50,114 nucleotides of DNA from Candidatus Coatesbacteria bacterium (GTDB taxonomy: Bacteria > RBG-13-66-14). The notes below the pieces were generated by a model. The model was given only the letters and a program-made list of their open reading frames with translations, did not search any database and was not told the DNA's origin. The DNA is taken from NCBI GenBank assembly GCA_014728225.1, contig WJLX01000101.1, positions 1 to 50,114 of the forward strand. The letters are read 5' to 3'. The position numbers were made by a program, and so were the translations under genes. Below, in pieces: positions 3,650-41,980 of this stretch (position 1 is its first letter; each line of letters opens with the position of its first letter).

Positions 3650-3732
3650 CGCTGCCGATCGTCGAGCCGGCTGACGACGTCGGGTTAAATCATCCACTCC
3701 GAATACGGACACTCACTGATAAGGGAGGAAGA

Positions 3733-13890: not shown

Positions 13891-14076
13891 CCGGAAACCT
13901 TTGAAAACCGCTCGCCAGACCCCGGGGCCGGGTCGCCGGTCGCGCCGGAACTGGCACGGTTTTTGCAGTTGCCGTACCGCTGAGACGTTTCACAGTCTTC
14001 GACGCCGCAAAAACCGTGCCAGTTCCGGCGGCGAAGTCGCTGATCGTCGCCGGTCGTGCTTTTCAAAGGTCTCCGG
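13891..14076. repeat. nested inverted-repeat element, copy B
   Basis: The outer arms 13891-13907 and 14060-14076 match at 16 of 17 (core ACCTTTGAAAA). The inner arms 13944-13966 and 14007-14029 are a perfect 23-bp inverted repeat with core GGAACTGGCACGGTTTTTGC. Compared with copies A and C, the left arm has CT for CC and the right arm has the matching AG for GG. The centre is 40 bp. It lies between pth and hppA, both on the plus strand. Confidence 0.92.
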
Positions 14077-20762: not shown

Positions 20763-20793
20763 GCAAAGACACGGCTCCCGGCCGTGTCTTTGC
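20763..20793 (-). terminator. terminator of the chemosensory operon
   Basis: Perfect 13-bp stem GCAAAGACACGGC / GCCGTGTCTTTGC with a 5-nt loop, 23 bp past the last CheW-like gene. The minus strand continues GTCTCTTTGTTTG, a broken U-tract. Confidence 0.8.
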
Positions 20794-20816: not shown

Positions 20817-21221
20817 TCAGTCCAGTCCCCGGCGAATCAAACGGCGGTGGTCGAGGAGGAGTACCCGACTCGCGGCGTCCTGCAGCGCTCCCCGGATCAC
20901 TCCGTCGTCGTGCGGTTCGAGTCCCTCGGCGTCAATGGTCGTCAGCTCACCGGCCTCCTCGGCCAGCAGCACCACGGCGCCGTTGCGGTTCTCGACGACG
21001 ACGCCGTAGGGGTAGTCGGCCTCGACGGGTCCTTCGAGGACCAGGGCCGCCAGGGCCCGGCCGTCGTGCAGCGTCAGTCCGGCGCAACGCTCCGGCGGGT
21101 TGGGCGCGGGGTGCAGTCGGGGGGCGCGCAGGATCTCGCCCACGCCGACCAGGCTGACCGCCCAGCGCTTGCCCGCCAGGGGAAAGACCAGCAACCGCAG
21201 TCGTGGCCCGTCAAGCATCAC
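20817..21221 (-). CDS. CheW-like adaptor, small variant 2
   Basis: A 134-residue protein with a degenerate CheW-like fold: LRLLVFPLAGKRWAVSLVGVGEILRAPRLHPAPNPPERCAGLTLHDGRALAALVL corresponds to the first half of CheW, and AVVLLAEEAGELTTIDAEGL to the second. It is the last gene of the operon and overlaps the previous one by 11 bp. It may scaffold CheA and receptors or act as a decoy; assignment rests on pattern and position. Confidence 0.7.
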   Translation of the reverse strand: MMLDGPRLRLLVFPLAGKRWAVSLVGVGEILRAPRLHPAPNPPERCAGLTLHDGRALAALVLEGPVEADYPYGVVVENRNGAVVLLAEEAGELTTIDAEGLEPHDDGVIRGALQDAASRVLLLDHRRLIRRGLD

Positions 21222-21588
21222 CCTCCTCGGAGTCGAAGGCCGCCGGGTTCAAGACGATGCGTGGTCGGCCGTGGATCTCGACGACGCCACGGAAATAGGC
21301 CGTTGGCGCCCGGCTGGCCTGGGTCGGGAAGGGGCTCAGTTCCTCGGGCGCGGCGGCGACGATGTCGCCCAGCTCGTCGATGTAGAGCACGACCTCAGCA
21401 ACGCCGCCGCGCAGGCGCAACAGTTTGTCGAAGGTCGCCTTGGGCCGACGCTTGCCCCGCCGGCCCAGCTCGCGCTGCCAGGGGCCGAAGCGGGGCCCGC
21501 CCTTGCCCGGGTTATCCTCGATGCGGGCCAGCTCAGCCACCGCTACGGCGTAGGCCAGCTCTTCGATCTCGAACAACAGCAGGTCCAT
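21211..21588 (-). CDS. CheW-like adaptor, small variant 1
   Basis: A 125-residue protein: MDLLLFEIEELAYAVAVAELARIEDNP is a typical CheW opening, and IVEIHGRPRIVLNPAAF-like sequence (VEIHGRPRIVLNPAAF) a CheW closing strand. The middle is shorter and more basic than classical CheW. The frame runs upstream into cheB, but ATG 21588, 7 bp after the cheB stop, is the sensible start. It overlaps the next gene. Confidence 0.7.
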   Translation of the reverse strand: MDLLLFEIEELAYAVAVAELARIEDNPGKGGPRFGPWQRELGRRGKRRPKATFDKLLRLRGGVAEVVLYIDELGDIVAAAPEELSPFPTQASRAPTAYFRGVVEIHGRPRIVLNPAAFDSEEGDA

Positions 21589-21595
21589 CGCTACC

Positions 21596-22738
21596 TCAGG
21601 GTTGACGGCCGGCCAGTTGCAGGAATAAGGCGCCCAGCTCGAAGGCGGAGACGGTCGCGGCCCGGACACCGGCCTCGAGCACGGCGGAGGGCATGCCCCA
21701 GACGACGGAACTCAGGCGGTCCTGGACGTAGGTGGTTCCGCCGGCACGCTCCAGCTCACGCATCCCGGCGGCGCCGTCGGCACCCATGCCGCTGAGGATC
21801 ACCCCGGCGGCTCCGGCTCCGTAGGCCCGGGCGACGCTTTCCAGCAGCACCGTGGCCGAGGGGATGTGCCCGGCGACGGGATCGGCGGTCAACAGGCGGA
21901 AGCGTCCCTTGTCGTCGACCTGCAGGTGGGAGCGCGGGGCGGCCAGGTAGATCCGGCCCGGGATCACCCGCTCGCCGTCGACGGGCCTTCGAACCTCGAG
22001 GGCGCAGACGCGCTGGAAGATCCGCAGCAGCTCCTCGTAGAACGACGGGGTAATGTGCTGGACTACGGCCACGGGAACGGGATAGTCCGCCGGCAGGGCG
22101 GCCAGCAGTCTACGCAGCAGGGCCGGTCCCCCCGTCGAGGCGCCGACGGCGATGAAGCGCACCGGGGGGTCGACGTCGTCCCGGGGCGGCGGTTGACGTC
22201 GTTTGGTCGGCGCGGCGGCGCGGGGCGCTACGGCCGTCGTCGGTGACGGTTCCGGGGTGGTTTTTTCTGCCGCACGTTCGCCAGTTTCCCGCCGTTCCAG
22301 GGGGGCGAAGCGCACCGGGCGGATGCGCGAGGCCAGCAGAACCTTGGCGATCAGCTCCTCGGCGATCAGGTGCAGGTCCAGGGAAACGCTGCGCGAGGGT
22401 TTTAGTACGCAGTCGATGGCCCCCAGGCTTAACGCCTCGACGGTGTAGGCGGCGCCCTGTTTGGTGTAGGAGGAGACCATCACCACGGGCACCGGATTGG
22501 TGTTCATCAGCCGTCGAACGGCCTCGATGCCGTCCATGCGCGGCATGACCACGTCCATGGTCACGACGTCGGGCCGCAGCTCGTTGACCCTGGTCAGGGC
22601 CTGCGCACCGTCGGCGGCGAAACCGACGACCTCGAGCCGGGGATCGGCGTCCAGCAGGTCGGCCAGGGTGCGCCGGACGAAGTTGGAGTCGTCGACCACC
22701 AGGACGCGGACGCGCTTGGGGTTCGTTGCGGAGTTCAC
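21596..22738 (-). CDS. cheB: chemotaxis response regulator protein-glutamate methylesterase CheB
   Basis: Removes methyl groups from (and deamidates) receptor glutamates when phosphorylated by CheA. The receiver domain (about 8-125) has VLVVDDSNFVRR and the phospho-Asp in VVTMDVVMPRMDG. The linker is Pro/Ala-rich. The methylesterase domain (about 190-375) has the triad in GASTGGP (Ser), VQHI (His) and GMGADGAAG (Asp). The start is GTG at 22738 with no clear Shine-Dalgarno. Only two bases separate it from the base of inverted-repeat copy C, which could control its translation. Confidence 0.97.
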   Translation of the reverse strand: MNSATNPKRVRVLVVDDSNFVRRTLADLLDADPRLEVVGFAADGAQALTRVNELRPDVVTMDVVMPRMDGIEAVRRLMNTNPVPVVMVSSYTKQGAAYTVEALSLGAIDCVLKPSRSVSLDLHLIAEELIAKVLLASRIRPVRFAPLERRETGERAAEKTTPEPSPTTAVAPRAAAPTKRRQPPPRDDVDPPVRFIAVGASTGGPALLRRLLAALPADYPVPVAVVQHITPSFYEELLRIFQRVCALEVRRPVDGERVIPGRIYLAAPRSHLQVDDKGRFRLLTADPVAGHIPSATVLLESVARAYGAGAAGVILSGMGADGAAGMRELERAGGTTYVQDRLSSVVWGMPSAVLEAGVRAATVSAFELGALFLQLAGRQP

Positions 22739-22740
22739 CT

Positions 22741-22935
22741 CGGCGAGACCTTTGAAAAACGTTTACGGCGCTTTCGCGGCCCTGCATGGCCGGAACCGGC
22801 ACGGTTTTTGCGGAGTTTGGCGCCTGCGGCCGTCCGGAGCGCGGCGGGGCTGCAAAAACCGTGCCGGTTCCGGCGTTGGGGTTCGCGTGGCGGCGGGGCG
22901 GTCTTCCCGGCGGTCGTTTTTCAAAGGTCTCGCCG
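22741..22935. repeat. nested inverted-repeat element, copy C (between cheA and cheB)
   Basis: The outer arms 22741-22761 and 22915-22935 are a perfect 21-bp inverted repeat (core GAGACCTTTGAAAAACG). The inner arms 22789-22811 and 22852-22874 are a perfect 23-bp inverted repeat with core GGAACCGGCACGGTTTTTGC. The centre is 40 bp and the total 195 bp, as in copy A. In the operon mRNA it lies 21 nt after the cheA stop and 2 nt before the cheB start. Confidence 0.94.
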
Positions 22936-22956
22936 CTGACGGTCGGAGCTGGGACC

Positions 22957-25900
22957 TCAGCGACCGCTGAGTTGGAGGAGCTGCTTGACCAGGCGTTCTT
23001 CGTTGAAGGGTTTGGTCAGGAAGGTTTCCACTCCGAGTTCCTGGGCCCGCTGACGGTGTTTCTCGCCGGTGCGGGCGGTCAGGATCATCACGGGCAGGTG
23101 GCGGGTGCGGGAGTTGCTCTTGATCTCGCTGATCAACTCGTAACCGTGCATCCGGGGCATTTCGAGGTCGGTGAGGACGCAGTCGATCTCCTCGCGCTCC
23201 AGGATGTCGAGGGCTTCGAGGCCGTCGGCGGCGGTCAGCACGCTGAAGCCGCGGCGGGAGAGCATCCGGCCGACGAAGTTGCGGATGCTGACCGAATCGT
23301 CGACCAGCAGGACGCGGACGCCGTAGCCCACGCCGGCGGAGTCCGGGGTCAGGGTGAGTTTCTCGCGGCGGGGTTTGGTCCGGCGCGGGGCGGGTTGGTC
23401 ATCGACGACGGTCTGATCGGGTCGTTGGAGCTCGGTCGTCGGTGTCGTCGGAGGCTCTTCGGTTTCGAGGGGCGCAGCGGGACGGCGTTGCGGGGCGCGC
23501 CCGATCAGGTCGTCGGGGTTGATGATCAGGGCCACGCTGCCGTCGCCCAGGGTGGTGGAGCCGCCGAACATCGGCAGGTTCTTCAGCAGCCCGCCGGTGG
23601 GCTTGACCACCATCTCCTGCTTGCCGACGAGTTCATCGACGACGAGACCGACCCGGCGCTCGCTCTGGCGCACGATCACCAGAAACTGGTCCGTCGTTTG
23701 CGAGGGCAGGTCGAAGAGTTCGTCGAGGCGCCGCAGGGGCAGCAGGTCGTCGCGGTGGCGGTAGACCTCGCGTCCGGAGAGGCTCGTTAGGTCATCGGGG
23801 GCCAGCATCAGGGTTTCTTCGACTTCGGTCAGCGGCAGGGCGAAGGTCTGGCCGCCGACGGTGACGAACAGCCCCTCGCTGATACCCAGGGTCAGCGGCA
23901 GGGTGAGGATGAAGCGGGTGTAGGCGCCGGGCTCGCTCTTTAAGTCCAGAGTGCCCTTGATTTCCTTGAGCCGTTTGGCGACGATGTCCAGGCCGAAGCC
24001 GCGCCCCGCGGTCTCGGTCAGCTCGGCGGCGGTGGAGAAACCGGGGCGGAAGATCAGTTCGCGCAAGGTATCGTCGTCGGCGGAGTCGAACTCCTCCCGG
24101 CTGATCAGGCCCAGTTCGAGGGCCCGGCGGCCGACGGCCCGGGGATCGATGCCCGCGCCGTCGTCGTAGACCTCGAGCACGACGGAGTTGCCCAGGTGGT
24201 AGGCCTCCAGGCTGACCGTGCCGCGGACGGGCTTGCCGAGGGCCCGGCGTTCCTCCGTGGTCTCGACGCCGTGGGCCACGGCGTTGCGGATCAGGTGGGT
24301 GATCGGCGTCAGCAGGTCGTCGAGGAGCTTCTTGTCGATCTCGGTCTGCTCGCCGCTGACCTCGAAGTCCAGTTCCTTGTCGTAGTAGCGAGCGATGTCC
24401 CGGGCGGCGCGGCGGAAGCGGGTGGCCACGCTGGCGAAGGGCACCATCCGCACCAGGGTGACCTCGTCCTGGATGTTGCCGGCGATCAGGGACAGCTCGT
24501 TGAGGTGTTCGGAGAGCAGCCCGACGGCCCGCTGGTAGTTCTCGTTCAGGTTGGAGAAGTCGGAGCCCTGTCCGCTCAGGTCGCGGTTGAGGGCGTCGAG
24601 CTCGCTGAAGCGGTCGAACTCGTGGGGCGAGAAATCACTGATCGTCGAATGCCGGGTCCCGGCGTCGGCGCCCGCGGCCGCCCCGACGCCCCGGGCGGCG
24701 TACTCGTTGAGGCGGCGGGCGGCGGCCTGGAGCTCGGCGAGCTGTTCGGTGTAGCCGTCGGAGAGGCCGGCCAGCTCGGTGATGATCTCGTCGATGCGCG
24801 TCCGGGTGATCACCAGCTCGCCGGCCAGGTTGAGCAGGACGTCGAGGCGGGCCGGATCGACCCGGAAGCCGTGGGAGCGGGCGACGCCGGTGACTTCGGC
24901 GCGCGGAGCCGCGGCCTCGGCGGGGGTGCGTTCGAGCTCCTCGAACGCGCCGAGCAGCTCGGCCACCCCGGCGGTCAAATCGCGGATCCGCCGGTGGGTC
25001 TCCTCTTCGGTGACCACCTCGCGGCCCTGCTCGATGACGGTCTCCAGTAGCAGGGCGGCGGTGTCGGTCAGCTCGAAGAGCAGATCGATGCCGTCGACGG
25101 GCACGGCGTGTTCCAGCTCGTCGGCCCGGCTGAGCAGGTCCTCCATCGCTTTGGCGGTGCGGCTCATGGCGTTGAAGCCCAGCATCGCCGCGGCGCCCTT
25201 GAGGGTGTGGGCCTCGCGCATCAGCTCGCGGATCAGCTCGAGGCTGTCGGTTTCGTTCTCCAGCAGCAACAGGTTGGAGTTGAGCTGGTCGATCAGCTCC
25301 TCGGCCTCCGCGGTGAAGATGTCGAGCATCTCGGAGCGCACACCGCCGTCAGCGTCGGACACGGCGGCGGCCGGTTCGGCTTCCTCCGGCGGGGGCTCGA
25401 CCGGGGCGGCGGCTTCTTCCCGTCGCGGTTTGTAACCGCCGAAGAGTTGTTCGGCCAGGCTGTCTTCCTCGACGGGCGGTTTCTCGACTGCGGGTTCGGC
25501 GGCGGCCGGTTCGTCGGGCCGACCCGCGGCGGCGGCGAAGGCCGCGCGCACGGTGTGGACGGCCTCGGCGCCCGGAGGCGCACCGGCGCGGCGGGCGTTC
25601 TCCAGCTCCTCGTAGGCCGCCTGCCAGAGAGAGTTTACCCGCTCGTCGTCGTGGTTCTCCCGCAAACGGCGCAGCAACTCGACCAGGGCGGTGACGACCT
25701 CGGCGTCCGGCGCCTCGGCCTCCAGGGCGTCGGCCAGCTCGGCGCCGCGCTCGAGCAGCTCCCCGAGGGCTTCCTCCGTCGGCGGCTCGGCGCTCGGCAG
25801 GTCGGCGAGGCGGTCCAGGGCCTCCTCAACGGCGGCGGGATCTCCCTCGGGCAGGGCCTCGAGGTGGGCGGCCAGGCGCTCCAGCAACACCACCAGGGCG

Positions 25901-26130
25901 GCGGGGACCTCCTCGGCGGTTAAATCGAGCTTGCCGAGGCGTTCCCGCAGGCGCTCGAAGAAACCTTCCTCGCGGTCGAAGCCGCTCCAGAGTGAGGCCT
26001 GCAGACAGCCGTCGACGGCGCGCAGCAGCTCGGGACGCTGCGGTTCGTCGGCGGTCAGCTGCACCGCCAGCTCCTCGAGCAGGGGCTCGAGCTGGGAGCG
26101 GTAGTCCTCCAAGGGCCGTTGGTCAGTCAT
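22957..26130 (-). CDS. cheA: hybrid chemotaxis histidine kinase CheA with C-terminal receiver
   Basis: A 1057-residue kinase. Residues 1-260 are an uncharacterised helical, Glu/Ala/Pro-rich extension. The HPt domain follows, with the phospho-His near 308 in REAHTLKGAAAMLGF. The dimerisation segment is near 430-560 and the HATPase near 590-760 (LIRNAVAHGVETTEER, YDDGAGIDP, GRGFGLDIV). A CheW-like domain spans about 770-900 (ISEGLFVTVGGQTFALPL). The receiver covers about 935-1055 (RVLLVDDSVSIRNF, phospho-Asp in LTDLEMPRMHGYE). The fused receiver is typical of non-flagellar or alternative-function systems (Frz, Pil-Chp-like). It overlaps the HPt gene by 8 bp. Confidence 0.97.
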   Translation of the reverse strand: MTDQRPLEDYRSQLEPLLEELAVQLTADEPQRPELLRAVDGCLQASLWSGFDREEGFFERLRERLGKLDLTAEEVPAALVVLLERLAAHLEALPEGDPAAVEEALDRLADLPSAEPPTEEALGELLERGAELADALEAEAPDAEVVTALVELLRRLRENHDDERVNSLWQAAYEELENARRAGAPPGAEAVHTVRAAFAAAAGRPDEPAAAEPAVEKPPVEEDSLAEQLFGGYKPRREEAAAPVEPPPEEAEPAAAVSDADGGVRSEMLDIFTAEAEELIDQLNSNLLLLENETDSLELIRELMREAHTLKGAAAMLGFNAMSRTAKAMEDLLSRADELEHAVPVDGIDLLFELTDTAALLLETVIEQGREVVTEEETHRRIRDLTAGVAELLGAFEELERTPAEAAAPRAEVTGVARSHGFRVDPARLDVLLNLAGELVITRTRIDEIITELAGLSDGYTEQLAELQAAARRLNEYAARGVGAAAGADAGTRHSTISDFSPHEFDRFSELDALNRDLSGQGSDFSNLNENYQRAVGLLSEHLNELSLIAGNIQDEVTLVRMVPFASVATRFRRAARDIARYYDKELDFEVSGEQTEIDKKLLDDLLTPITHLIRNAVAHGVETTEERRALGKPVRGTVSLEAYHLGNSVVLEVYDDGAGIDPRAVGRRALELGLISREEFDSADDDTLRELIFRPGFSTAAELTETAGRGFGLDIVAKRLKEIKGTLDLKSEPGAYTRFILTLPLTLGISEGLFVTVGGQTFALPLTEVEETLMLAPDDLTSLSGREVYRHRDDLLPLRRLDELFDLPSQTTDQFLVIVRQSERRVGLVVDELVGKQEMVVKPTGGLLKNLPMFGGSTTLGDGSVALIINPDDLIGRAPQRRPAAPLETEEPPTTPTTELQRPDQTVVDDQPAPRRTKPRREKLTLTPDSAGVGYGVRVLLVDDSVSIRNFVGRMLSRRGFSVLTAADGLEALDILEREEIDCVLTDLEMPRMHGYELISEIKSNSRTRHLPVMILTARTGEKHRQRAQELGVETFLTKPFNEERLVKQLLQLSGR

Positions 26131-26533
26131 CGTCTCGTTTCCCCGGTTGGTCGTCCAGGTCGGCGAACAGCCTCTCCAGTTCCGTGATCGCCTCGTCCTC
26201 CTGCAGGTCGCCCGTTTCGTAGCCCGCGATCATCTCGCCGAGGCGCTCCCGCCAGCGGGCCAGGGCCTGCAGTTCAGCCCGTTTGATCCGGCGCTCCTCG
26301 AAGAGGTACTCCTGCAGCCGCTGCTCACCCAGACGGGCGGCCCGGGCGGTATTGTCCAGCCCCAGGCTCAGCGCCGAACCACGGACCGTGTGGGCCAGCC
26401 GGTAGAGCTCGTAGTTGGCGTCCTCCACCAGCTCCAGCTCCGGATAGGTCGCCAGCAGCTCGGCGAACCGCCCCAGGTTGGCCCCGGCTTCGGCGATGAA
26501 GGTCTGGATCAGCTCGTATCTCGTCCGACTCAC
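26123..26533 (-). CDS. stand-alone histidine phosphotransfer (HPt) protein
   Basis: A 136-residue helical protein with YRLAHTVRGSALSLGLDNTARAARLGEQ: the phospho-His is near residue 48, and the usual Lys after it is Arg. The start is GTG at 26533, overlapping the cheR stop (GTGA), and the end overlaps the cheA start by 8 bp. A separate HPt next to a CheA that already has one suggests a phosphorelay branch, perhaps accepting phosphate from the CheA receiver and passing it to the PATAN-receiver protein or CheY (inference). Confidence 0.85.
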   Translation of the reverse strand: MSRTRYELIQTFIAEAGANLGRFAELLATYPELELVEDANYELYRLAHTVRGSALSLGLDNTARAARLGEQRLQEYLFEERRIKRAELQALARWRERLGEMIAGYETGDLQEDEAITELERLFADLDDQPGKRDDD

Positions 26534-27405
26534 GCGCCTTCCCCCCGCCGTCGGCGAGTGCGCCGACTCTTGCGGTAGAGCGGCAATCCGGCGAAATCGA
26601 CCAACCGAAAGCGCTCGCTGATGCCGAACAGGCTCTCGGAATGGCCGATGAACAGGTAGCCGTCCTCGACCAGGCCGCGGTGGAGCAGTTCGGCGATGCG
26701 TTGGATGCAGTCGACCTCGAAGTAGATCAGGACGTTGCGGCAGAAGATGACGTCGACGGGGGCGTCGAAGGGCGGTGGACGCAGCAGGTTGTGACGGCGG
26801 GGCCGCACGATCCGGCGCAGGGATTCCCGCAGTCTGCCGAGGTCGGATCCCAGCGGTTCGAGATACCTCTGGCGCAGTCCGGCGGGGATGCGCTCCAGCT
26901 CGGAGCGGCGGTAGATCCCGGCGGCGGTACGCTCCACGGCGCGACGGGAGAGGTCCGTGGCCCAGACCTCCAGCTCCCAGTCCCGCCGCGTTCCCAGCAC
27001 CTCCCGAGCCGTCATCGCCAGGGAATAGGGCTCGTGGCCGCCGGCGCAGCCGGCGCTCCACAGCCGCAGGGTTCGCCGGTCCGCGAAGCCCTTGCGCGAG
27101 ATGATCGCCGGCAGGACGTACTCCCGCAGCACGTGGAACTGGGGCTCGTTGCGGAAGAAGGAGGTCTCCTGGACCAGCAGATCCTCGAGCAGGGTTTCGT
27201 ACTCCTCGCCGTCGGACTGTAGTTGGAGGCGGTAGTGGGCGGGGTCGTCGAGCCCCAGGTGCTTCATCCGCCGGGCCACCCGGTTGGCCAGCTGGTAGAG
27301 CCGGCCCTTGGAGTAGGCCAGTCCGCTGCGCCTCTGCACCAGTTCGCGCAGAGACTCAAGCTGCGCCAGCTCGGTGCCGGTCAGTCTCTCGACCAGATCG
27401 GCCAT
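26530..27405 (-). CDS. cheR: chemotaxis protein methyltransferase CheR
   Basis: Methylates receptor glutamates using SAM. The 291 residues comprise the N-terminal helical domain (ELVQRRSGLAYSKGRLYQLANRVARRM), LVQETSFFRNEPQF, the SAM-binding LRLWSAGCAGGHEPYSLAM, and IFCRNVLIYFE. The usual SAM-site motif GEEPYS reads GHEPYS here, a notable substitution. It has no TPR extension. It starts 11 bp downstream of the MCP gene. Confidence 0.95.
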   Translation of the reverse strand: MADLVERLTGTELAQLESLRELVQRRSGLAYSKGRLYQLANRVARRMKHLGLDDPAHYRLQLQSDGEEYETLLEDLLVQETSFFRNEPQFHVLREYVLPAIISRKGFADRRTLRLWSAGCAGGHEPYSLAMTAREVLGTRRDWELEVWATDLSRRAVERTAAGIYRRSELERIPAGLRQRYLEPLGSDLGRLRESLRRIVRPRRHNLLRPPPFDAPVDVIFCRNVLIYFEVDCIQRIAELLHRGLVEDGYLFIGHSESLFGISERFRLVDFAGLPLYRKSRRTRRRRGEGA

Positions 27406-27416
27406 GCGGGGCCCGG

Positions 27417-29711
27417 TTAACCTTCCTCACCTTCGTCGTTGACGAGGAACTCGTCGGGGACCTTGAAGTTGGCCAGCTCGGCGAGCAACTGTTCGGAGAT
27501 CTTGCCCAGGTCCTCGGCGGCCTGGAGGGACTGGTTGACGCCGACGAGGTTCTGTCGGGTGACCTCGCTGATCTCCTCCATCGACTGGACGATGCCTTCG
27601 GCGCCCTTGGCCTGCTGCTTCGAGGCCAGGGAGATCTCCTGGATCAACTGGGCCGAGGCGTTGACGTTCTCGGTGATCTCGGTCAGCGAGCCGCCGGCCT
27701 TCTCGGCCAGGTCGGCGCCTTCCTCGACCTGCCCGGCGCTGGATTCCATCAGTCGGACGGCCTCGGCGGTCTCGCTCTGGATGCCCTGGATCAGGGTGGC
27801 GATATCCTTGGTGGCCTTGGCCGAGCGCTCGGCCAGCCGGCGGATCTCGTCGGCGACGACGGTGAAGCCGCGGCCGGCCTCGCCGGCGCGGGCGGCCTCG
27901 ATGGCGGCGTTGAGCGCCAGCAGGTTGGTCTGGGTGGCGATGTCGTCGATGACCTCGATGATCTCGCCGATCTCGACGGAGCTCTCCCCCAGGGCCTTGA
28001 TGCGCTCGGCGGTGCCCTGGACGGTCTCGCGGATGGCCAGCACCGCCCGGACGGCCTCGCCGACCTCCTTCTCGCCCTCGGAGGCGATCTCCGAGGCCCG
28101 GTTGGCGGCCTCGGCCGTGGCGGCGGCGTTGTCGGAGACCTGAGAGATCGAGATGCTCATCTCCTCGACGGCCGAGGTGACGTTGGCGATCTGTTCGGCC
28201 TGGATCTCCGAGGAGCGGCTCATCTGCTCCGTGGTGGCGATGATCTCGCTGGAGGCCGAGACCACGCGGGAGGATGTCGTGTTGACCCGGGCCATCAGCC
28301 GGCCGAGCTGTTCGATCATCAGGTTGAAGGAGTCGCCCAGGGAGCCGACGACGTCGGCGGTCACCTCGGCCCGTCCGGTCAGATCGCCCTCGGCGGCGTC
28401 GGAGGTGACGGCCAGCAGGCGCATCATCGAGGCGTTGAGCGCCTCGCGTTCGGTCTCGGTCTGGATCAGCGCCAGGATGCGGTCGAGCATGGTGTTGAGC
28501 GATTCGCCCAGGGCCTGGAGCTCGTCGCCGGTCTGGATGTCGACGCGCTGTTGGTAATCACCGGCCGCGATATTCTCGGTCACCTCGGCCAGCTCGGTCA
28601 GCGGCTTGGTCAGCCGGGTGCCGAACAGGACGCCGGCGCCCACGGCCAGCACGATGGTCACCGCGGCGATGATGATCGCCGTGTTGCGACCGGTCTGGGC
28701 GGCGGCGACCGCCTCGTCGTACTCGATCTCGGCGATCAGGCCGTAGGTCAACTGGGCCTCCTGCACCCGCTCCCAGGCGTCCAGGCCGCGGATGTCCGGC
28801 CCGATGGGCACCTCGTAGTAGACGCCCATGACCTCCTCGCCGCGGTAGTTGGTGTAGACGCCGCGGTGGGGGTCGGTCAGCAGGATCTCCCTCTCGGCCA
28901 GCTCCCGGGTGGCCCGGGTGTCGATGGCCTGCTCCAGGATCGTCGATTCCTCGCCGAAACGGGAGTCCGAGCGCATCAGGTTGTCCGAGCCGACGATGTA
29001 GGTCTCGCCGGTCTCGCCCAGCATCTCGGAGCGGATCAGCAGGGAGTTGATCCGCGCCGGATCGATCTGCACCGCCACGGCGCCGATGATCGTCGTCCCC
29101 CCGGGGGCGCGCACCGGGGCGGCGATGAACATCGCCGGGTTGCCCGTCGGCTGGTAGATCTCGTAGTCGACGACGTTGGTCTCCCCGGTCAGCGCCGTGC
29201 GCACGCAGACGCCCAGGTTGGTGTCCTTGTAGGGCCCGCCCTTGAGGTTGGTGCCCATCTCCTCGCCGCGCAGCACCGAGTAGAGGACGTCGCCGTTGGT
29301 GGCCACCACGTAGACATCCTTGTAGCCGTAGTTGGAGCGGAACTCCTTGAGGAAACGGGAGTAGGGCTCGATGGTCTCGGTGTAGAGCGGGCTGTCCACG
29401 TCGCGGCCCAGCTCGACGAACAGGGGCTGGACGAACTGCAGCATCTCGAGGGTGCTGAAGTCCCGGCTGAGGACGGCCACGTCGGAGAAGCGGTCGTAGA
29501 AGTAGTTCTCCAGGGCGTCGCCGCGGGAGACGCCGATGGCCTCGAAGCTGTCCAGGGTCTGTTGCTCCTGGGCGTCGGCGTTGATGGCGGTGATGACGAT
29601 GGTCAGGCCGGCCGCCGGGATCAGGGTCAGCAAGACCGCCATCAGGATGATCTTGCCGCGGACGGACATCCGCCGCCAGAACAGCAATGATTTCAGGGAG
29701 AACTTAGCCAT
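27417..29711 (-). CDS. methyl-accepting chemotaxis protein with dCache sensor
   Basis: A 764-residue receptor. TM1 is at about 20-40 ([20 protein letters not shown]), and the periplasmic part at about 45-330 is dCache-like ([49 protein letters not shown]). TM2 is at about 338-360 ([20 protein letters not shown]), then HAMP. The signalling domain tip reads [20 protein letters not shown]. There is no NWETF-type C-terminal tether for CheR/CheB; it ends in LVNDEGEEG. It is the only receptor in the operon. The two substrate-binding lipoproteins just upstream are candidate ligand carriers for its periplasmic domain (inference). Confidence 0.96.
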
Positions 29712-29873
29712 CTGCCTCTACCTCCAGCGGTCGACCTTGCTGATTGTTAACCTAATCCGGTGCGATGAGAAGGGATGAGTGCGGGTGCCGCGGTCCGACG
29801 GGGGCTGGGGCGGCGGGGTCGGTCGGGTCGGCCCCGCCGCTGTCTCTTCGCCAACAGCAGCCTGACGTTCAGC
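29712..29873. other. gap with hairpin between second lipoprotein and MCP
   Basis: A perfect 9-bp stem GCGGCGGGG / CCCCGCCGC at 29810-29818 and 29832-29840 lies 33 bp past the lipoprotein stop. It lacks a U-tract, so it may be a processing or attenuation structure that sets the ratio of abundant lipoprotein to receptor. I see no strong promoter in the rest. Confidence 0.45.
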
Positions 29874-31016
29874 CTAACCTTCCTCGTCTTCTGCTTCTTC
29901 TTCTTCGGCGGGTGCCGCCACCGGGGTGGTCACCGGCGGGCCGGACTGGACGATCTCGCAACTGCGGTGCAGGTCCTCGGGGATGGTTACACCCAGCCGG
30001 GCGGCGGCGGTTTCGTTGATCAGCCGGGCGCCGTCGACATTGGTCTCGATCGGCATGGTGCTGATCGGTACGCCGTTGAGCACCTTGATCACCATCTCGA
30101 CGGCCAGCTCGCCGTGATCCGTGCCGGTGATGCAGTCGCCGAGGAGGGCGCCGTCGTCGCGGACGGTAAAGGCCCAGGTGGCCGTCGTCGGCAGGTCGGT
30201 GTTCCGCAGCGTCCACTCCAGCACCTCGGGTCCGGTGATGTGGTCGCCGTTGGCCCGGCTCAGGGTGTGGTAGACGGTGAGCATGATGAAGTCCGCCGTG
30301 GCGTTGGCCTCGGCGACGGCCTCCTTCCAGACGTCGAACTCGCCGATCTGCTCCTCCATCACCACCTCGATGCCGTAACTGGGCGCCTGCTCCTTGTAGT
30401 ACTCCATGTGGGGCGGGGCCACGGTGGCGTCGTCGTTGAGCAGGGCCATCCGCGTAGCCTCGGGGTAGAGCTGGCGCAGGATCTCGATGGTGCCGGCGAA
30501 GCGGGCCTGGTGCAGACAGCCGCTGATATTGTGACCCGGATTGTCCAGGTTGTCGGCCACGCCGTAGTGGTCGACGGGGTCGTTATTCACCGCGGCGAAG
30601 ACCACGGGGATGTCCTTGTCGAGCATCTGGACGCCGAAGTACTCCATCGCGTTGTCGGCGATCAGGATCACTGCGTCGGGTTGCTGCTCCTCGACGTAGG
30701 CCAGGGTCTCGCTCCCGGCCCGGGTCATGAACTCCACATCGGGGTTGCGCTTGGTGTCCATGTAGTAGTACTCGAGGTTGTAGTCCTCGCCCTCCACCCA
30801 GCGCGAGTCGGCGAAGGCGGTCTCGATGCCCGCGTTGACCTCCTGGACCCAGTTGTACTCCGGATGGTAGCTGTGAACCACCAGGATGTCGTAGACCGCG
30901 CCGGCGTCGGCGTCGGCGTCGGTTGCCGGATCGCCGTCCTCGTCGCAGCCCGTACTCCACAGCAGCGCGAGCAGCGCGGTTAGAACCAGCACTAAGATGG
31001 CTCTCGGGTGCTTCAT
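29874..31016 (-). CDS. ABC-type substrate-binding lipoprotein 2 (ABC_sub_bind-like)
   Basis: A 380-residue protein: signal peptide MKHPRAILVLVLTALLALLWSTGC with lipobox STGC, an acidic linker, then a periplasmic-binding fold beginning DILVVHSYHPEYNWVQEVNAGI and continuing LEYYYMDTKRNPDVEF. It ends in an acidic Pro/Glu tail. It belongs with PF04392-type proteins, which occur with both transporters and sensor systems; no permease or ATPase is nearby, so a sensory role is likely. It is a clear paralogue of the next upstream gene. The frame extends upstream, but ATG 31016 has GGAGGAACC directly before it. Confidence 0.9.
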   Translation of the reverse strand: MKHPRAILVLVLTALLALLWSTGCDEDGDPATDADADAGAVYDILVVHSYHPEYNWVQEVNAGIETAFADSRWVEGEDYNLEYYYMDTKRNPDVEFMTRAGSETLAYVEEQQPDAVILIADNAMEYFGVQMLDKDIPVVFAAVNNDPVDHYGVADNLDNPGHNISGCLHQARFAGTIEILRQLYPEATRMALLNDDATVAPPHMEYYKEQAPSYGIEVVMEEQIGEFDVWKEAVAEANATADFIMLTVYHTLSRANGDHITGPEVLEWTLRNTDLPTTATWAFTVRDDGALLGDCITGTDHGELAVEMVIKVLNGVPISTMPIETNVDGARLINETAAARLGVTIPEDLHRSCEIVQSGPPVTTPVAAPAEEEEAEDEEG

Positions 31017-31113
31017 GGTTCCTCCTTGATTTTGCTGGTGATGGACGAAGCCGCCGTCCAGGCCGTCAATCAAGTCGAACCGGCTCCCCTTCGCCGACGA
31101 GGCGGGTTGGTTC

Positions 31114-32169
31114 CTAGAAGACGGTGCAGCTGGCGCGCAGCGAGTCGGTGACTTCGATACCCCAGCGTTCGGCGGCGGCGGCGTTGACCATCCGTTCGCC
31201 GTCGACGTTCTCGACTACGGAGATGGTCCCCGGTTCGCGACCGTTCAAGTAAACGCCGATCAGTTTGGCGACCTCTTTGCCCTGGTTGACACCGTTGATG
31301 GCCTCGGCGCAGAGGGCGCCGCCCTCGACGGACCAGTCCCAGGTGCCGACGACGGGGATCGGCGAGTTCTCGACGGTCCAGGCCAGGACCTCGTTCTCGT
31401 CGATGTGCTCGCCGGCTGCGTTCTCGATGGTGTGATAGAGGGTCAATTGAATGTAGTCGGCCGTTTCGGCGGCGGCGGCCACGGCGGCCCGCCAGTCCTC
31501 GAAGGTGCCGACGGCCTCGTCGTAGACGACGTCCAGACCCAGCTCGGCGGCCTGGGCCGTCATCCGCTCGATGACCGGCGGCGCCGTGGTGCCGTCATCG
31601 TAGATGAAGGCCACCGCGGCGGCCTCGGGACGCATCTCGCGCAGCAGATCCAGGGTGCCGGCGAAGCGCTCGCGCTCCAGGCAGCCGGTGATGTTATGCC
31701 CGGGCTTGTCGTAGCTGTCGACGATGCCGTAGCTCTCGACGGGATCGCTGTTGACGCCGCAGAAGAACACCGCCCGCTCGCCGTCCAGCAGCTCCTCGCT
31801 GACGTAGGTCTGGGCGTTGTCGTCGACGGTGATCACGATGTCGGCGTCGAGTTCCTCGATCTTCGCCAGGGCGTCCGCGCCGGCCCGCTCGAATTCCTCG
31901 GCGGGGATACGCTTGGTATCCATGTAGAAGTATTCGAGGAGGTAGTCCTCACCCTCGGTCAGGCCGGCGTCGGTCAGTTCGGCCTCCAGGCCCTCGTTGA
32001 CGTCGGCGACCCACTTGTACTCGGGATGATAGCTGTGAACGACGAGAAGCTGCGACGGAGCGTCCGCGGTCTCGTCCTCGGCGGTGACGGTTTCCTCCTC
32101 GCCGTCGCAACCGGCGAAGACGATCAGCAAAGCGAAGCTGAGTAGTATGACGAGGGCAATCCGTTTCAT
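31114..32169 (-). CDS. ABC-type substrate-binding lipoprotein 1 (ABC_sub_bind-like)
   Basis: A 351-residue protein: signal peptide MKRIALVILLSFALLIVFAGC with lipobox FAGC, then QLLVVHSYHPEYKWVADVNEGL, LEYFYMDTKRIPAEEF and FFCGVNSDPVESYG. Its closest relative in the window is the neighbouring lipoprotein, with the same motif order (HSYHPEY, YMDTKR, NNDPVDHYG/NSDPVESYG, PGHNI-GCL), so the pair arose by tandem duplication. GGAGGTTG precedes the ATG. It lies 40 bp downstream of cheW, inside the chemosensory operon. Confidence 0.91.
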   Translation of the reverse strand: MKRIALVILLSFALLIVFAGCDGEEETVTAEDETADAPSQLLVVHSYHPEYKWVADVNEGLEAELTDAGLTEGEDYLLEYFYMDTKRIPAEEFERAGADALAKIEELDADIVITVDDNAQTYVSEELLDGERAVFFCGVNSDPVESYGIVDSYDKPGHNITGCLERERFAGTLDLLREMRPEAAAVAFIYDDGTTAPPVIERMTAQAAELGLDVVYDEAVGTFEDWRAAVAAAAETADYIQLTLYHTIENAAGEHIDENEVLAWTVENSPIPVVGTWDWSVEGGALCAEAINGVNQGKEVAKLIGVYLNGREPGTISVVENVDGERMVNAAAAERWGIEVTDSLRASCTVF

Positions 32170-32209
32170 CGAAAGACAACCTCCAGGGGTTGGCCCGCGG
32201 CCCGTTCCC

Positions 32210-32662
32210 CTAACGATAGGGGGCGAAGGCCTCCAGGCGGGTTAGTTCGACGGCGTCCAGGACGCTGACGGGGCCGCCGCCGCGATTGTAGATGCCGATC
32301 AGCAGTTTGGGGCGCGGCAACTCCGTCGGCGGCGGCAGCAGTTCAGCGGTGTCGAGTTCGGTGATATCGGAAACGAAGTCGACCAGCAGGGCGAAGGCGG
32401 ATTCGGGCTCCGGCTCCAGCACCAGCACCCGGTTGGCGGCGCCCCGGTTGCGCCGGGTCAGCTCGAACAGGCCGCTGATCTCCAGCAAACCGGTGACCAC
32501 GCCGCGCAGGTTGAACAGGCCCAGCACCGTCGACGGCGCGCCGGGGACCGGCGTGACCGACGGCGGGAAGATGATGTCGGTGACGACGGAAACGTCGAGG
32601 GCGAAGGTCTCGCCGCCCAAGCCGAACTCGACGAAGCGTCGCCGCTGCGGGGCTTCAGACAC
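32210..32662 (-). CDS. cheW: chemotaxis coupling protein CheW
   Basis: A 150-residue CheW: FVEFGLGGETFALDVSVVTDIIFPPSVTPVPGAPSTVLGLFNLRGVVTGLLEI is a classical opening, with the NLRG motif that contacts CheA and receptors, and ALLVDFVSDI follows. The start is GTG at 32662 with GGAGGTGA upstream. It is the only full-type CheW of the three in the cluster. Confidence 0.93.
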   Translation of the reverse strand: MSEAPQRRRFVEFGLGGETFALDVSVVTDIIFPPSVTPVPGAPSTVLGLFNLRGVVTGLLEISGLFELTRRNRGAANRVLVLEPEPESAFALLVDFVSDITELDTAELLPPPTELPRPKLLIGIYNRGGGPVSVLDAVELTRLEAFAPYR

Positions 32663-32728
32663 TACTCACCTCCGGCTCGTCGACCGGTCTCCGTACTGCG
32701 TTTAAGCCGTTCGAACCGCGGCCTCGAT

Positions 32729-32840
32729 CACCGAGGGGGCGATAAACCGAGCTGGTTCTCGACGACCTGCTCGACGACCTGCTGGACGACCTGCTCGACG
32801 ACTTGCTGGAACTCCTCGGTCTCGAAGGGTTTTAGTTATC
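32729..32840 (-). pseudogene. duplicated cheY 3' tail with 12-bp repeat expansion
   Basis: Minus-strand reading gives KPFETEEFQQVVE, then QVVQ, QVVE, QVVE, then NQLG. This is the C-terminus of the intact cheY just upstream (KPFETEEFQQVVENQLG) with the four-codon QVVE unit expanded from one to four. No start or receiver body is present. It lies in the cheY-cheW gap. Confidence 0.85.
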
Positions 32841-32905
32841 TACCTCACAGCTTCGACGGGTGTTTACCGGCCCCTGGGGCTCTGGTCACCCACCCCGGGG
32901 CGACC

Positions 32906-33268
32906 CTAGCCGAGCTGGTTCTCGACGACCTGCTGGAACTCCTCGGTCTCGAAGGGTTTTGTTAGATACTCGTCGGCGCCCTGGCGCAGGCCCCAGAACT
33001 TGTCCGAGTCCTGGTCCTTGCTGGTCAGCATGACGACCTTGAGTTTCTCGGTCTTGGGGTCGGAGCGCAGGTCGCGGCAGACCTGGAAGCCGTTCATCTT
33101 GGGCAGGATGATGTCCAGGACGATCAGGTCGGGCAGCTCGCTCTTGGCCATCTCCAGACCGGCGGCGCCGTCGGTGGCTTTGATAATATCGTGGCCGAGG
33201 GGTTCCAGAGCCTCCAGGACCAGCTCCATGTCGACACTCGAATCCTCGACGACCAGTATCTTTGCCAT
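32906..33268 (-). CDS. CheY-like single-domain response regulator
   Basis: A 120-residue receiver: KILVVEDSSVDMEL (acidic pocket), phospho-Asp in LIVLDIILPKMNGFQ, Thr/Ser in VVMLTSKDQ, and Lys in YLTKPFETEEF. MNGFQVCRDLRSDPKTEKLKVVMLTSK resembles PilH/PatA-type regulators of surface behaviour more than the flagellar-motor CheY. It is probably the output or sink for CheA phosphate. A duplicated copy of its tail follows it. Confidence 0.94.
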   Translation of the reverse strand: MAKILVVEDSSVDMELVLEALEPLGHDIIKATDGAAGLEMAKSELPDLIVLDIILPKMNGFQVCRDLRSDPKTEKLKVVMLTSKDQDSDKFWGLRQGADEYLTKPFETEEFQQVVENQLG

Positions 33269-33580
33269 CGGTTCAACCTACCTTTCACTGGGGTGGTTCC
33301 GGCGGGAGGGGGGCCCGCCACCGGGGTTTCCGGCTGGGGTCGTCGACCGACGGGGTCGCTCCCCTGAACGGTCGGGACGCCAAGGCGGCCGACGACGTAA
33401 GAATCTCTCTAGTTCAAAGTTGCAAGAAGTGTGCCAATCACGAATCGTCCGGGCCTTCGTCGGGGGTCTTGGAGCAGCGGAAGGGGAAGATTAAGTATAA
33501 CAAACCGGAACCCTGGGTGCTTTGTCTCAACGCGGGGACGGTCTTTGGTGATCAAAACGGCGACCGGGGCGGCGGCTGTC
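33269..33580. other. gap upstream of cheY-like gene with possible promoter
   Basis: No gene seen. On the minus strand an extended -10, TGTTATACT, lies at 33494-33502 without a good -35, so a second promoter for cheY and the downstream genes is possible. A 17-bp sequence TGCAAGAAGTGTGCCAA at 33421-33437 recurs exactly at 35695-35711. Confidence 0.45.
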
Positions 33581-33739
33581 TCAGTCCTGCTTCATGTAGG
33601 CGTAGAGGCCGAGGTCTTCCCAGAGGGCGAAGCGCTCGTGATCCTCCTCGCTGATGGCTTCTCCGTAGGGGTCGACGGGGTGGGGGTAGCGACGCTGGAT
33701 ATCCTGCCAGCGGGCGATCTCTTCTTCGGAGAGCGACAT
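33581..33739 (-). CDS. small acidic protein, unknown
   Basis: A 52-residue soluble protein (SLSEEEIARWQDIQRRYPHP; DHERFALWEDLGLYAYMKQD). The frame is open upstream to a TTG that overlaps the previous stop, but ATG 33739 has a strong GGAGGTGGG seven bases away. Rich in Glu, Trp and Tyr; no family recognised. Its position between two receiver genes suggests a role as adaptor or phosphatase-like partner of the pathway (inference). Confidence 0.7.
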   Translation of the reverse strand: MSLSEEEIARWQDIQRRYPHPVDPYGEAISEEDHERFALWEDLGLYAYMKQD

Positions 33740-33780
33740 GCGACCCACCTCCGGGGTTGTGGGGGTAGACTGGTGTTGGA

Positions 33781-34932
33781 TCAACCGGTGCGCTGCAGCT
33801 TGCGTTCGACCAACTTGCGGGCGATGCGGGTCAGCTCCTCCTCCTTGAAGGGCTTCTCCAGGTAGACGTCGGCGCGGACCAGGCGACCGCGGAGCTTGTC
33901 GGTGAAACCGGTCAGCGAGGTCAGCAGGATCACGGGCACGTCGGTGGTACGGGCGTCCTTCTTGAGCTGGCTGCAGACCTCGTAGCCGTTGCGCCCCGGC
34001 AGCATGACGTCGAGGACGACCAGATCGGGAGGTTCGGCGACGGCCTTCTCGATGGCGATTTCGCCGTCGGCGGCCTCGAGGATGTCGAAGCCGGCCTCGG
34101 AGAGGACGTAGCTGACCAGGTGGCGCGAGGTGATACTGTCGTCGACGACGAGGATGCGGGACTTGCGCTCACCGGCCTCGCCGCGTTTGACGATGCCCAG
34201 GTTGAAGAACACCGCCACCGCCTTGAGCACCTCCAGGCGGGAGTGGTGGGACAGGCTGAGCAGATTGTTGACCGTGCGGCGGTTGTTGATCAGCTTCAGG
34301 CAGTCCCATTCGACCTGGGAGAACTCGATGTCGTCGGCCAGCTCCTGCTGCTGGATCATCAGCGGGATGTCCAGAGAGCCGATGAGTTCGAGGAGGGACT
34401 GCTCCTCGTCGGTGATGCGGGCCACCTCCAGCAGCAGGTTGTCGACGCTCATCGGCTCGGCGAAGCTGCGGGGCAGCTCTTCGTCGTCGATATAATAGAC
34501 CAGGATGTCCATGTCGTCGGCCAGCTCGCCGTTGATGTGGCGGCGGCTGCCGCGATGCCGGCCGAAGAGGTCCTTGGCCAGCTCGACGGTGCGCAGGCGG
34601 AAGGCCTGTTCGACGTGCTCGGCGGTGACGATGCCCTTTCTTATCAGCACCTCGCCGATGACCCGGCCGTTGGCCCGCTGGCGCATTTGGGCCAGCTCGT
34701 TCATCAGCAGGCTGTTGGTGATGGCGCCGATGCGCACCAGGTAGGCGCCGATGGGCTCGATCTGGCCCGGGGAATCGGCCCAGATGACCCGGCCCGAGCG
34801 CAGGTAGAAATTGACCTCCAGCTCGTTGCTCTTGATGCTGCAGCAGATGGTTTCGCGCTTGAAGCGCAGCAGCTCGAAGATGTCGGGCAGGGACAGCCCG
34901 GAGTGGGTGCCTTTCAGGATTACGCGTTCCAT
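33781..34932 (-). CDS. PATAN (DUF4388)-receiver protein
   Basis: A 383-residue protein. The N-terminal PATAN/DUF4388 region is LKGTHSGLSLPDIFELLRFKRETICCSI, with FYLRSGRVIWADSPGQ. A helical middle follows (MRQRANGRVIGEVLIRKGIVTAEHVEQAF; TVNNLLSLSHHSRLEVLKAVAVFFNLGIV), then a C-terminal receiver from about 262 (RILVVDDSITSRHLVSYVL, phospho-Asp in VVLDVMLPGRNGYEV, KPFKEEEL). Related PATAN response regulators control pili, phototaxis and heterocyst patterning. It is first gene of the operon, with a promoter at 35120-35148. Confidence 0.88.
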   Translation of the reverse strand: MERVILKGTHSGLSLPDIFELLRFKRETICCSIKSNELEVNFYLRSGRVIWADSPGQIEPIGAYLVRIGAITNSLLMNELAQMRQRANGRVIGEVLIRKGIVTAEHVEQAFRLRTVELAKDLFGRHRGSRRHINGELADDMDILVYYIDDEELPRSFAEPMSVDNLLLEVARITDEEQSLLELIGSLDIPLMIQQQELADDIEFSQVEWDCLKLINNRRTVNNLLSLSHHSRLEVLKAVAVFFNLGIVKRGEAGERKSRILVVDDSITSRHLVSYVLSEAGFDILEAADGEIAIEKAVAEPPDLVVLDVMLPGRNGYEVCSQLKKDARTTDVPVILLTSLTGFTDKLRGRLVRADVYLEKPFKEEELTRIARKLVERKLQRTG

Positions 34933-35119
34933 CGGGATTGTGCCCCCAAAGCGAAAGACATCATTTTTCGTCGGACGGGTTGGCTGATAACGTCGTTCCG
35001 TGGTCTGGCCGGGTTCTGTGCGTTTCGATTGTTCAGGAAGAGGCCCACTGTGTCAGGCGGGTTCGAAGCGGGGATAATGGTCCAACTTCGTCTGTAGACG
35101 ATAGAAGGCGACAATCTGA
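34933..35119 (-). other. leader of the chemosensory operon
   Basis: About 180 nt between the predicted start of transcription and the first gene. It has no ORF with a ribosome-binding site and no riboswitch that I recognise. Confidence 0.4.
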
Positions 35120-35148
35120 AGTATAACTGCGACTAGGTATCTTTTCAA
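35120..35148 (-). promoter_or_regulatory. promoter of the chemosensory operon
   Basis: TTGAAA (35143-35148, minus strand), exactly 17 bp, TATACT (35120-35125). Sigma70-type rather than sigma28 (flagellar) or sigma54, which supports a non-flagellar regulon. Confidence 0.75.
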
Positions 35149-35809
35149 GTAGTGACTGGCTGATTATGACGTAGACGCTTGATCGGAACGCAGGTACCTA
35201 TAGCAGCGTCGCTGAGTCGCAAGCCACACTCGGCTTTCCCTCGCCGGGACCGCCCGACGGCGGACTGCCGGCGGGATCGGCGCCTTCGGTTGGTGGTTGT
35301 CGCCGGGGGAGCGGCGGAAAGTGCCTGCTCCTAACCCGTTCAGGACCAACTTGTCAGGATTGTTACTCGACCGGCGTTGCGGCGGCCCGTTAAACCGCTG
35401 CTCGCGCTGTCATCCAGCAGTCTGCGCCATTATCCGGCGGTCTCCGTTTCCCGCGCAATGTTCCAGCAACGTGAGTGCTGCCTGTCGCTTGTTTCAAGCG
35501 CTGGGAAAAGACCCCTCGAGCATCTCGGCCCCATCCTATCAGAATGGCTTGCTTTCTGACCAGCGCTTATCCATTCTGACAAGAAAACCGCTGGATTCCG
35601 CCGGCCGACCATCGGGGTCGGGGTTGGCCTTGTGGGCCTGGCTTCTCCCACCCCAAGCGCGAGGAGCGCTGAAGGATCACCGGTCCAGTAGTAATGCAAG
35701 AAGTGTGCCAAGGGAGCGGATTGCTCTTGTTGATAATCCCGCCGTGGGGCGGGGTTCACCTTCGGACCGACCCGCGGCGCGGTGCGGGCGCCGTCGGCCG
35801 CTGGATGAG
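35149..35809. other. non-coding gap of lower GC downstream of lptD-like gene
   Basis: No gene supported on either strand. Base composition is less GC-rich than the genes. It contains TGCAAGAAGTGTGCCAA at 35695-35711 (exact copy of 33421-33437) and a small stem CCCGCC / GGCGGG at 35738-35753 that could end the lptD-like transcript. Confidence 0.4.
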
Positions 35810-41785: not shown

Positions 41786-41980
41786 GGCCCTGGAAAAGCG
41801 GCCGCGGGTCAACCGCAACCCCCCAGGAACACCGCGCCGCCGGAACTGGCACGGTTTTTGCAACTCGGCGACCGTTGGAGCGTTCCTCAACGGTTCGCCT
41901 CAGCAAAAACCGTGCCAGTTCCGGCGGCGGAGGTTTGTCGGTAGTCGTGCCGCTGTTCCGATACCCGCTTTTCCAGGGCC
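41786..41980. repeat. nested inverted-repeat element, copy D
   Basis: The outer arms 41786-41801 and 41965-41980 are a 16-bp inverted repeat (GGCCCTGGAAAAGCGG), diverged from the other copies but keeping GAAAA. The inner arms 41836-41861 and 41903-41928 are a perfect 26-bp inverted repeat with core GGAACTGGCACGGTTTTTGC. The 41-bp centre folds again (GCGACCGTTG with CAACGGTTCGC). Total 195 bp. It lies 69 bp past the tandem-Nudix stop and upstream of fba. Confidence 0.92.

Follow-up and report, generated by a model that had tools for sequence, protein, structure and literature searches.

The stretch of DNA considered here (the window) comprises 50,114 nucleotides (nt) of a Candidatus Coatesbacteria genome, labelled G000 in the following, and all coordinates refer to its full length. 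Gene calls together with a Pfam profile search of the window proteins have revealed 13 consecutive genes on the minus strand (Table 1), which we read as a Pil-Chp-like chemosensory operon, probably for pilus steering, with built-in lipoproteins that would present ligands to its receptor. The contents agree with those that a first-pass annotation, made from the sequence alone, had listed for this strand: a PATAN-receiver protein (PATAN-REC), a 52-residue protein, a CheY-like receiver, a CheW, two substrate-binding proteins (SBPs) of family PF04392, one methyl-accepting chemotaxis protein (MCP) with a dCache sensor, CheR, a stand-alone histidine phosphotransfer (HPt) protein, CheA with an HPt domain and a receiver, CheB, and two short CheW-like proteins, of which the first (CheW2) gives a weak match.

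Gene order and relatives of the operon

The main key to the system, overlooked in the first-pass annotation, is its gene order. The succession of receiver, receiver, CheW, MCP, CheR, CheA with receiver, CheB and CheW is that of PilGHIJK-ChpABC, the Pil-Chp cluster (PMC5767216), and the two SBP genes are inserted between the PilI-like and the PilJ-like gene. In a BLAST comparison with a small protein set, which holds no flagellar-class references and is therefore no test of class, most comparable parts of the operon have matched Acinetobacter Pil-Chp well. The CheY-like protein finds its best match in PilH (41% for the Acinetobacter protein, E 4e-35), and PATAN-REC reaches 67% to the copy in G013, with its receiver next closest to PilG (37% to Acinetobacter PilG). 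The signalling half of the MCP is, after its relative in G008, closest to PilJ (44% over 351 residues, Acinetobacter), and CheA, again after G008, matches a Deinococcus aetherius CheA (348 bits) and ChpA (332 bits). The identity of CheA to Acinetobacter ChpA amounts to 28% over 932 residues, and that of the PilI-like CheW to a frame in the PilI slot of locus L049 to 27%. The NCBIfam matches of CheA and the MCP carry no class name, and a tblastn search of plasmids with CheA and PATAN-REC (at least 5000 records) gives a ranking among the matches listed, which is likewise no test of class.

Table 1. Features of the operon and its surroundings, with positions in the window.
Feature	Position	Strand	Evidence and remarks
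PATAN-REC response regulator, PilG/PixG-like	33781..34932	-	Pfam DUF4388 8e-16, Response_reg 1.3e-22
52-residue acidic protein	33581..33739	-	between PATAN-REC and the CheY-like gene
CheY-like receiver, PilH-like	32906..33268	-	Pfam 1.1e-24
CheW, PilI-like	32210..32662	-	Pfam 3.2e-25
SBP1 binding lipoprotein	31114..32169	-	ABC_sub_bind PF04392 2.2e-21; lipobox-like Cys-Asp; tree
SBP2 binding lipoprotein	29874..31073	-	PF04392 2.4e-16; ATG start probably 31016; lipobox-like Cys-Asp; tree
MCP, dCache sensor and PilJ-like signalling half	27417..29711	-	dCache_1 5.6e-18, HAMP 9.3e-14, MCPsignal 4e-50
CheR methyltransferase, PilK position	26530..27405	-	Pfam 7.6e-53
Stand-alone HPt protein	26123..26533	-	Pfam 1.6e-7; kept in G008
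CheA, ChpA-like	22957..26130	-	one Pfam HPt, H-kinase_dim, HATPase, CheW, REC
CheB methylesterase with receiver	21596..22738	-	Pfam 2e-53; NCBIfam CheB 352 bits vs cut-off 293
CheW2, weak CheW-like	21211..21669	-	Pfam E 0.0038, 17.3 bits vs cut-off 23.5
CheW3, CheW-like	20817..21221	-	Pfam 9.9e-11
Nested palindromic repeat element	22742..22934	-	fills most of the CheA-CheB gap
Intrinsic terminator, likely operon end	20763..20793	-	13-bp stem and T-rich tail, just 3' of the last CheW
Sigma70-like promoter candidate upstream of PATAN-REC	35120..35148	-	TTGAAA-17-TATACT, 10/12
Sigma54-like -24/-12 site upstream of PATAN-REC, leader ~760 nt	35695..35710	-	exact pattern match, without palindromic partner
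Sigma54-like -24/-12 site upstream of the CheY-like gene	33421..33436	-	exact pattern match

Conservation has been followed in a phylum set of 14 genomes, consisting of G000, six others of its family and seven of other families. G000 is 96.8% complete and holds one MCP (PF00015), one CheA (PF02895) and two PF04392 proteins, all within the operon; a third match to SBP1, on another contig, is very weak (E 3.4e-4). Relatives from two other genera, G013 and G008, together support the order of the operon genes. A G013 contig reads LptD, PATAN-REC, the 52-residue gene, CheY, CheW, SBP1 and SBP2 and then ends, and a G008 contig begins inside the MCP and continues with CheR, HPt, CheA and the start of CheB, so that each half of the order described by the first-pass annotation recurs outside the window. 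The 52-residue frame, which has no match in Pfam or NCBIfam, is probably a real gene, since G013 has a comparable short frame in the corresponding position.

Matches to the CheA profile PF02895 have been found in G000 and G008 only. The view that CheA is limited to these two genomes has nevertheless been weakened, as a CheA-like protein adjoining an MCP in G007 (f5) escapes this profile. The locus in question (L014, G007:C17:19455-23003, minus strand) lies outside the family and presents an MCP followed by the CheA-like protein that is invisible to the PF02895 model; G000 may therefore hold a second, divergent CheA.

Binding proteins and their partners

SBP1 and SBP2 are 45% identical, and the structure predicted for SBP1 (predicted local distance difference test score 90.6) has the type I periplasmic binding fold. 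Matches of the model include 6hnj (Z 29.9, root-mean-square deviation 2.9, 289 residues aligned), 3lkv (Z 28.0, deviation 4.3, 291 aligned) and the L-Trp entry 3lft (Z 27.9, deviation 4.0, 290 aligned), with 6hni also noted. LuxP and TorT entries occur among the fold matches, and the LuxP-LuxQ entry 1zhh has been recovered with Z 16.9 (deviation 3.6, 270 aligned). Judged by the modelled fold, both proteins would be of the amino-acid-binding PF04392 kind; the NCBIfam TrpX model assigns them 69.1 and 67.6 bits, far under its cut-off of 390. All four Coatesbacteria SBPs carry a lipobox-like Cys followed by Asp. According to the +2 rule of E. coli, an Asp after the lipoprotein Cys leads to retention at the inner membrane, and because of this rule the Cys-Asp pair suggests that the SBPs would be held at the inner membrane, beside the MCP.

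No permease or ATPase genes accompany the SBPs within the operon, according to the gene calls and Pfam, and the SBP2 gene stands directly before that of the dCache MCP. None of the seven genomes of the family, G000 included, has a match to the permease family PF02653 (BPD_transp_2), which is present in 7/7 phylum genomes of other families. A scan of a genome collection for SBP relatives, with patterns derived from the window's own family, has yielded 11 loci, one of them G013. In each of the other ten, the next gene on the same strand (as listed by script) encodes a membrane receptor. Eight of these receptors are histidine kinases, the Auribacter one is an MCP, and the tenth is a HAMP-PAS protein truncated by its contig end. 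Ten neighbour genes chosen at these loci include no permease or ATPase of the ATP-binding cassette (ABC) type; one OPT transporter lies on the opposite strand beside the L039 SBP. Searching the ten scan genomes themselves has returned 27 match rows, the earlier ones counted in, and 13 further stretches. Among these, one SBP precedes a dCache MCP, kinases follow one SBP and are fused to four more, one pair precedes a HAMP-Cache protein at a contig end, and one SBP is accompanied by permease and ATPase; the remaining five lie at contig ends, beside other genes or are not resolved. SBP genes directly before an MCP gene are thus also seen in Auribacter and a planctomycete, and the MCP carries a dCache sensor in 3/3 of the linked cases (the window, L040 and L090), two of which are pairs outside the phylum set.

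The phylogenetic tree comprises 45 rows, which have been chosen without use of neighbourhood. Its transport examples come mostly from plasmids, the scan patterns derive from the window's family, and L091 and L096 (no SBP frame recovered) as well as loci repeating included sequences are left out. A single branch (98/96) separates 17 rows, including all ten permease-linked ones, from 28 rows; on the 28-row side, to which the window SBPs belong, 26 rows are receptor-linked (beside or fused) and none is permease-linked. G018 has its permease-linked copy on the transport side and its receptor-linked copies on the other. Eight rows classed as other stand outside the two-state count of changes. Among the 27 rows classed as sensor, four are the proteins of the window and G013, the latter by synteny because its contig ends before the MCP; receptor genes are cut by contig ends in L042 and L086 (two rows), and 858 bp lie between L046 (two rows) and its kinase. 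The distant relative L052 (Vibrio sp. THAF191d, 1885-4915) is also among them and is divergent from a CHASE5 histidine kinase. The last of these rows, L107, falls on the transport side, with a cyclase as its linked gene: in Rhizobium leguminosarum pRL22b6 (2809-5566), a PF04392-like gene overlaps an adenylate/guanylate cyclase gene, with TadE/TadG genes on the other strand. This overlap is perhaps another receptor pairing.

Because of the missing PF02653 permease, the receptor-linked side of the tree and the receptor that follows in 10/10 outside loci, the SBPs are most probably sensory and would present ligand to a receptor and not to a transporter, as the first-pass annotation had proposed. 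That annotation had also held that permease genes conserved beside the relatives would speak against this role, and such genes have been encountered solely in the transport-type part of PF04392.

Promoters, gaps and a palindrome family

Many genes of the operon are tightly packed. CheR/HPt overlap by 4 nt, HPt/CheA by 8, CheB/CheW2 by 74 and CheW2/CheW3 by 11, and only 11 nt separate the MCP from CheR. Wider intervals precede CheB (218 nt), the CheY-like gene (312 nt) and CheW (243 nt). A single transcript from PATAN-REC to CheW3 would fit this arrangement, and the propeller gene downstream is probably separate from it because of the terminator with its 13-bp stem just after the last CheW. In the interval between the CheY-like gene and CheW, the end of the CheY-like gene recurs in decayed form at 32747-32833, with internal repeats in 12-bp steps.

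The sigma70-like site upstream of PATAN-REC, on which the first-pass annotation had relied, does exist, and sites of such quality number three in the region versus 0.8 expected. It is, however, only one among several promoter candidates, as two sigma54-like sites, absent from that annotation, stand upstream of PATAN-REC and of the CheY-like gene, rpoN is present in G000, and G013 has a weaker sigma54-like site before its 52-residue gene. Near-matches to the sigma54 pattern have been counted at nine in the window versus 0.88 expected. An interpretation of this excess as many promoters has been rejected, since seven of the nine share the core of a repeated palindrome and only those at 33421 and 35695 stand alone. 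The gap between LptD and PATAN-REC (34933-35809), which holds sigma54- and sigma70-like sites, is nearly 900 nt long, and its counterpart in G013 measures just 230-330 nt.

The palindrome between CheA and CheB belongs to a family with further cores in the window at 3515-3582, 13953-14020 and 41848-41916 and one arm near 50051. Its pattern has matched 244 times in G000, 135 times in G013, once each in G008 and G011 and not at all in the other ten genomes or the control. Long inverted repeats number 51 in 410,912 bases of G000, compared with two after one base shuffle. A GGCAC-N5-TTGC core is found in both arms of 43 of these 51, and 38 of the 43 have a loop of 40 or 41 bases. The inner arms read as two facing sigma54 -24/-12 sites, and the outer arms co-vary between copies. 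Since one copy has its core altered in both arms together, the pattern favours pairing over promoter function for this core. The palindrome is not in Rfam, whose matches in the window are two tRNAs only.

Proposed signalling route, output and alternatives

We assign a probability of roughly 60% to the reading that the window carries a Pil-Chp-like pilus-steering operon with built-in ligand-presenting lipoproteins, whose ligand binding, like the output of the system, is a prediction. The two lipoproteins, which would be anchored to the inner membrane on its outer side, would bind small molecules and dock in a LuxP-like manner on the dCache domain of the MCP, which would signal through CheW to CheA. 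By analogy with Synechocystis and Pseudomonas, phosphate from CheA would reach PATAN-REC, which would act on the pilus motor PilB, and also the PilH-like receiver, which would counter PATAN-REC, as PilH has been described to counter PilG in Pseudomonas (PMC10519157). CheR and CheB would adapt the receptor, and the extra HPt protein and the CheA receiver would probably spread or drain phosphate. With two HPt domains, both of which retain the H-x-x-[KR]-G motif, and four receivers, the branched phosphate flow suggested by the first-pass annotation is plausible; one HPt stands alone and Pfam assigns a single one to CheA, whose first 260 residues are without domain assignment.

Pilus steering is proposed as the output because order and components match Pil-Chp, pilus motors are encoded in G000, flagellar FliG is absent, and the PATAN domain mediates contact with PilB in Synechocystis (PMC10519157). 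Specifically, PilT scores 423.6 bits (cut-off 319.1) and a PilB-like ATPase (G000:C29) 651 bits, just below its cut-off of 675.65, and the FliG_C profile has matched none of the 14 phylum genomes, with control genomes such as E. coli giving matches. The first-pass annotation had suggested surface or pilus behaviour rather than flagella and had named a search for such genes elsewhere as a check; this part of it stands, whereas its argument from the sigma70 promoter falls, as such a promoter is irrelevant to pili and sigma54 sites are found as well.

Several observations weigh against the pilus-steering reading, and those on the output are also what the best-surviving alternative, itself unlikely, draws on, namely that the system is chemosensory with SBP co-receptors and governs some other behaviour on surfaces, or the expression of genes, through a different partner of PATAN-REC. 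PATAN (DUF4388) matches occur in 14/14 phylum genomes, at 2 to 12 per genome, yet T2SSE gives no match over cut-off in the seven genomes outside the family although PATAN is present there, so that the presence of PATAN does not by itself imply pili. In G000 the pilus genes do not adjoin the operon, and the sister genomes G009-G012 have pilus-type ATPases and no CheA or MCP match; pili therefore do not need the operon. Set against this alternative are the Pil-Chp order and components, the motors without FliG and the PATAN-PilB contact (PMC10519157). With respect to the receptor, the MCP sensor is of the dCache type, whereas that of P. aeruginosa PilJ is HBM-like. The SBP-MCP junction is spanned in no relative, G013 stopping after SBP2 and G008 starting inside the MCP; moreover, G013, at 99% completeness, has no MCP or CheA match, and a search of G008 (70% complete) with SBP1 has given none. 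The relatives outside the phylum set are mostly paired with kinases and not with MCPs, some (L054) have no adjoining receptor, an Aeromonas relative is an orphan, L107 links the transport side to a cyclase, and sampling for the tree has not been random. Finally, the long gaps before the CheY-like, CheW and CheB genes, the last filled mostly by the palindrome, may split the transcript.

It is improbable that the lipoproteins stand outside signalling as adhesins or ligand buffers while the MCP senses alone. Adhesive properties are named in the title of a fold relative, the substrate-binding protein CD0873, and dCache domains often bind ligand directly; the placement of SBP genes immediately before an MCP gene here, in Auribacter and in the planctomycete, the relatives fused to kinases, and the lipobox, which by the +2 rule suggests the inner membrane, all speak for a signalling role instead. 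Least probable of all is that the SBPs serve an ABC transporter encoded elsewhere and lie in the operon by chance or co-regulation: in its favour are the ABC-transport name of the family, a fold shared with transport SBPs and the existence of relatives with permease and ATPase, but the missing PF02653, the side of the tree and the same gene order in G013 stand against it.

The reading as a pilus-steering operon with its own binding proteins can be placed among known systems. With Pil-Chp of Pseudomonas and Acinetobacter the operon shares the gene order and PilH-, PilG- and PilJ-like sequences, and it differs in the PATAN domain on its first receiver, the two inserted SBPs, the dCache in place of an HBM-like sensor, and a separate HPt with only one Pfam HPt in CheA. 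The cyanobacterial Pix/Pil (Tax) phototaxis systems have in common with it PATAN-REC and a second receiver, CheW, MCP, CheA-REC and pili (PMC7690835, PMC10519157); CheR and CheB are present here, and signals would enter through a dCache MCP with SBPs instead of a photoreceptor. From TrpX-type ABC transporter SBPs, with which family and fold are shared, the window SBPs are set apart by the other tree side, scores below the TrpX cut-off and the lack of a permease. In LuxP-LuxQ, TorT-TorS and XylFII-LytS, a type I binding protein likewise acts on a membrane receptor, LuxP, TorT and XylFII being described as binding their receptors with or without ligand (PMC6321045); the receptors there are kinases, whereas a Pil-Chp-like MCP and two SBPs form the predicted pairing here.

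More tentatively, and at somewhat less than even odds, sensing could be wholly indirect, such that one MCP would be served by two co-transcribed non-transport lipoproteins on its dCache domain and specificity would be set via swappable binding proteins. A comparable layout has been found on the plasmid pDAETH-1 of D. aetherius, with the order receiver, CheW, SBP, MCP, CheA-REC, PATAN protein, receiver; its SBP, of another family (Peripla_BP_6), occupies the same slot as those of the operon. The layout of pRadio1 from D. radiophilus is similar, with a second MCP and without SBP, and the Deinococcus clusters differ from the window operon in having PATAN and receiver as separate end genes and neither CheR nor CheB. 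This one Deinococcus example is thin, yet suggests that the interval between CheW and MCP is a functional SBP position, and, if sensing is indeed wholly indirect, the Deinococcus operon would have acquired this design independently.

Pil-Chp, output through PATAN and receptors activated by SBPs have each been described before. Dedicated non-transport SBPs inside a Pil-Chp-like operon have not been found in the open-access literature searched, which is no proof of their absence, and a 2025 review of Pil-Chp names as a possibility only that ligands could reach PilJ directly or through a solute-binding protein, with 96 SBPs predicted in P. aeruginosa (PMC12632253). Here, the operon itself names two candidate SBPs, and their predicted partner is the one MCP that the genome search has returned, which reduces the question to a clean test of binding. 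Many further adjacent pairs are offered by the receptor-linked branch of PF04392, a few of them with MCPs, and for annotators it provides a reason against calling such proteins transporter parts. If sensing is wholly indirect, the MCP of this operon would be the first among pilus chemoreceptors whose dedicated binding proteins are encoded in the same operon.

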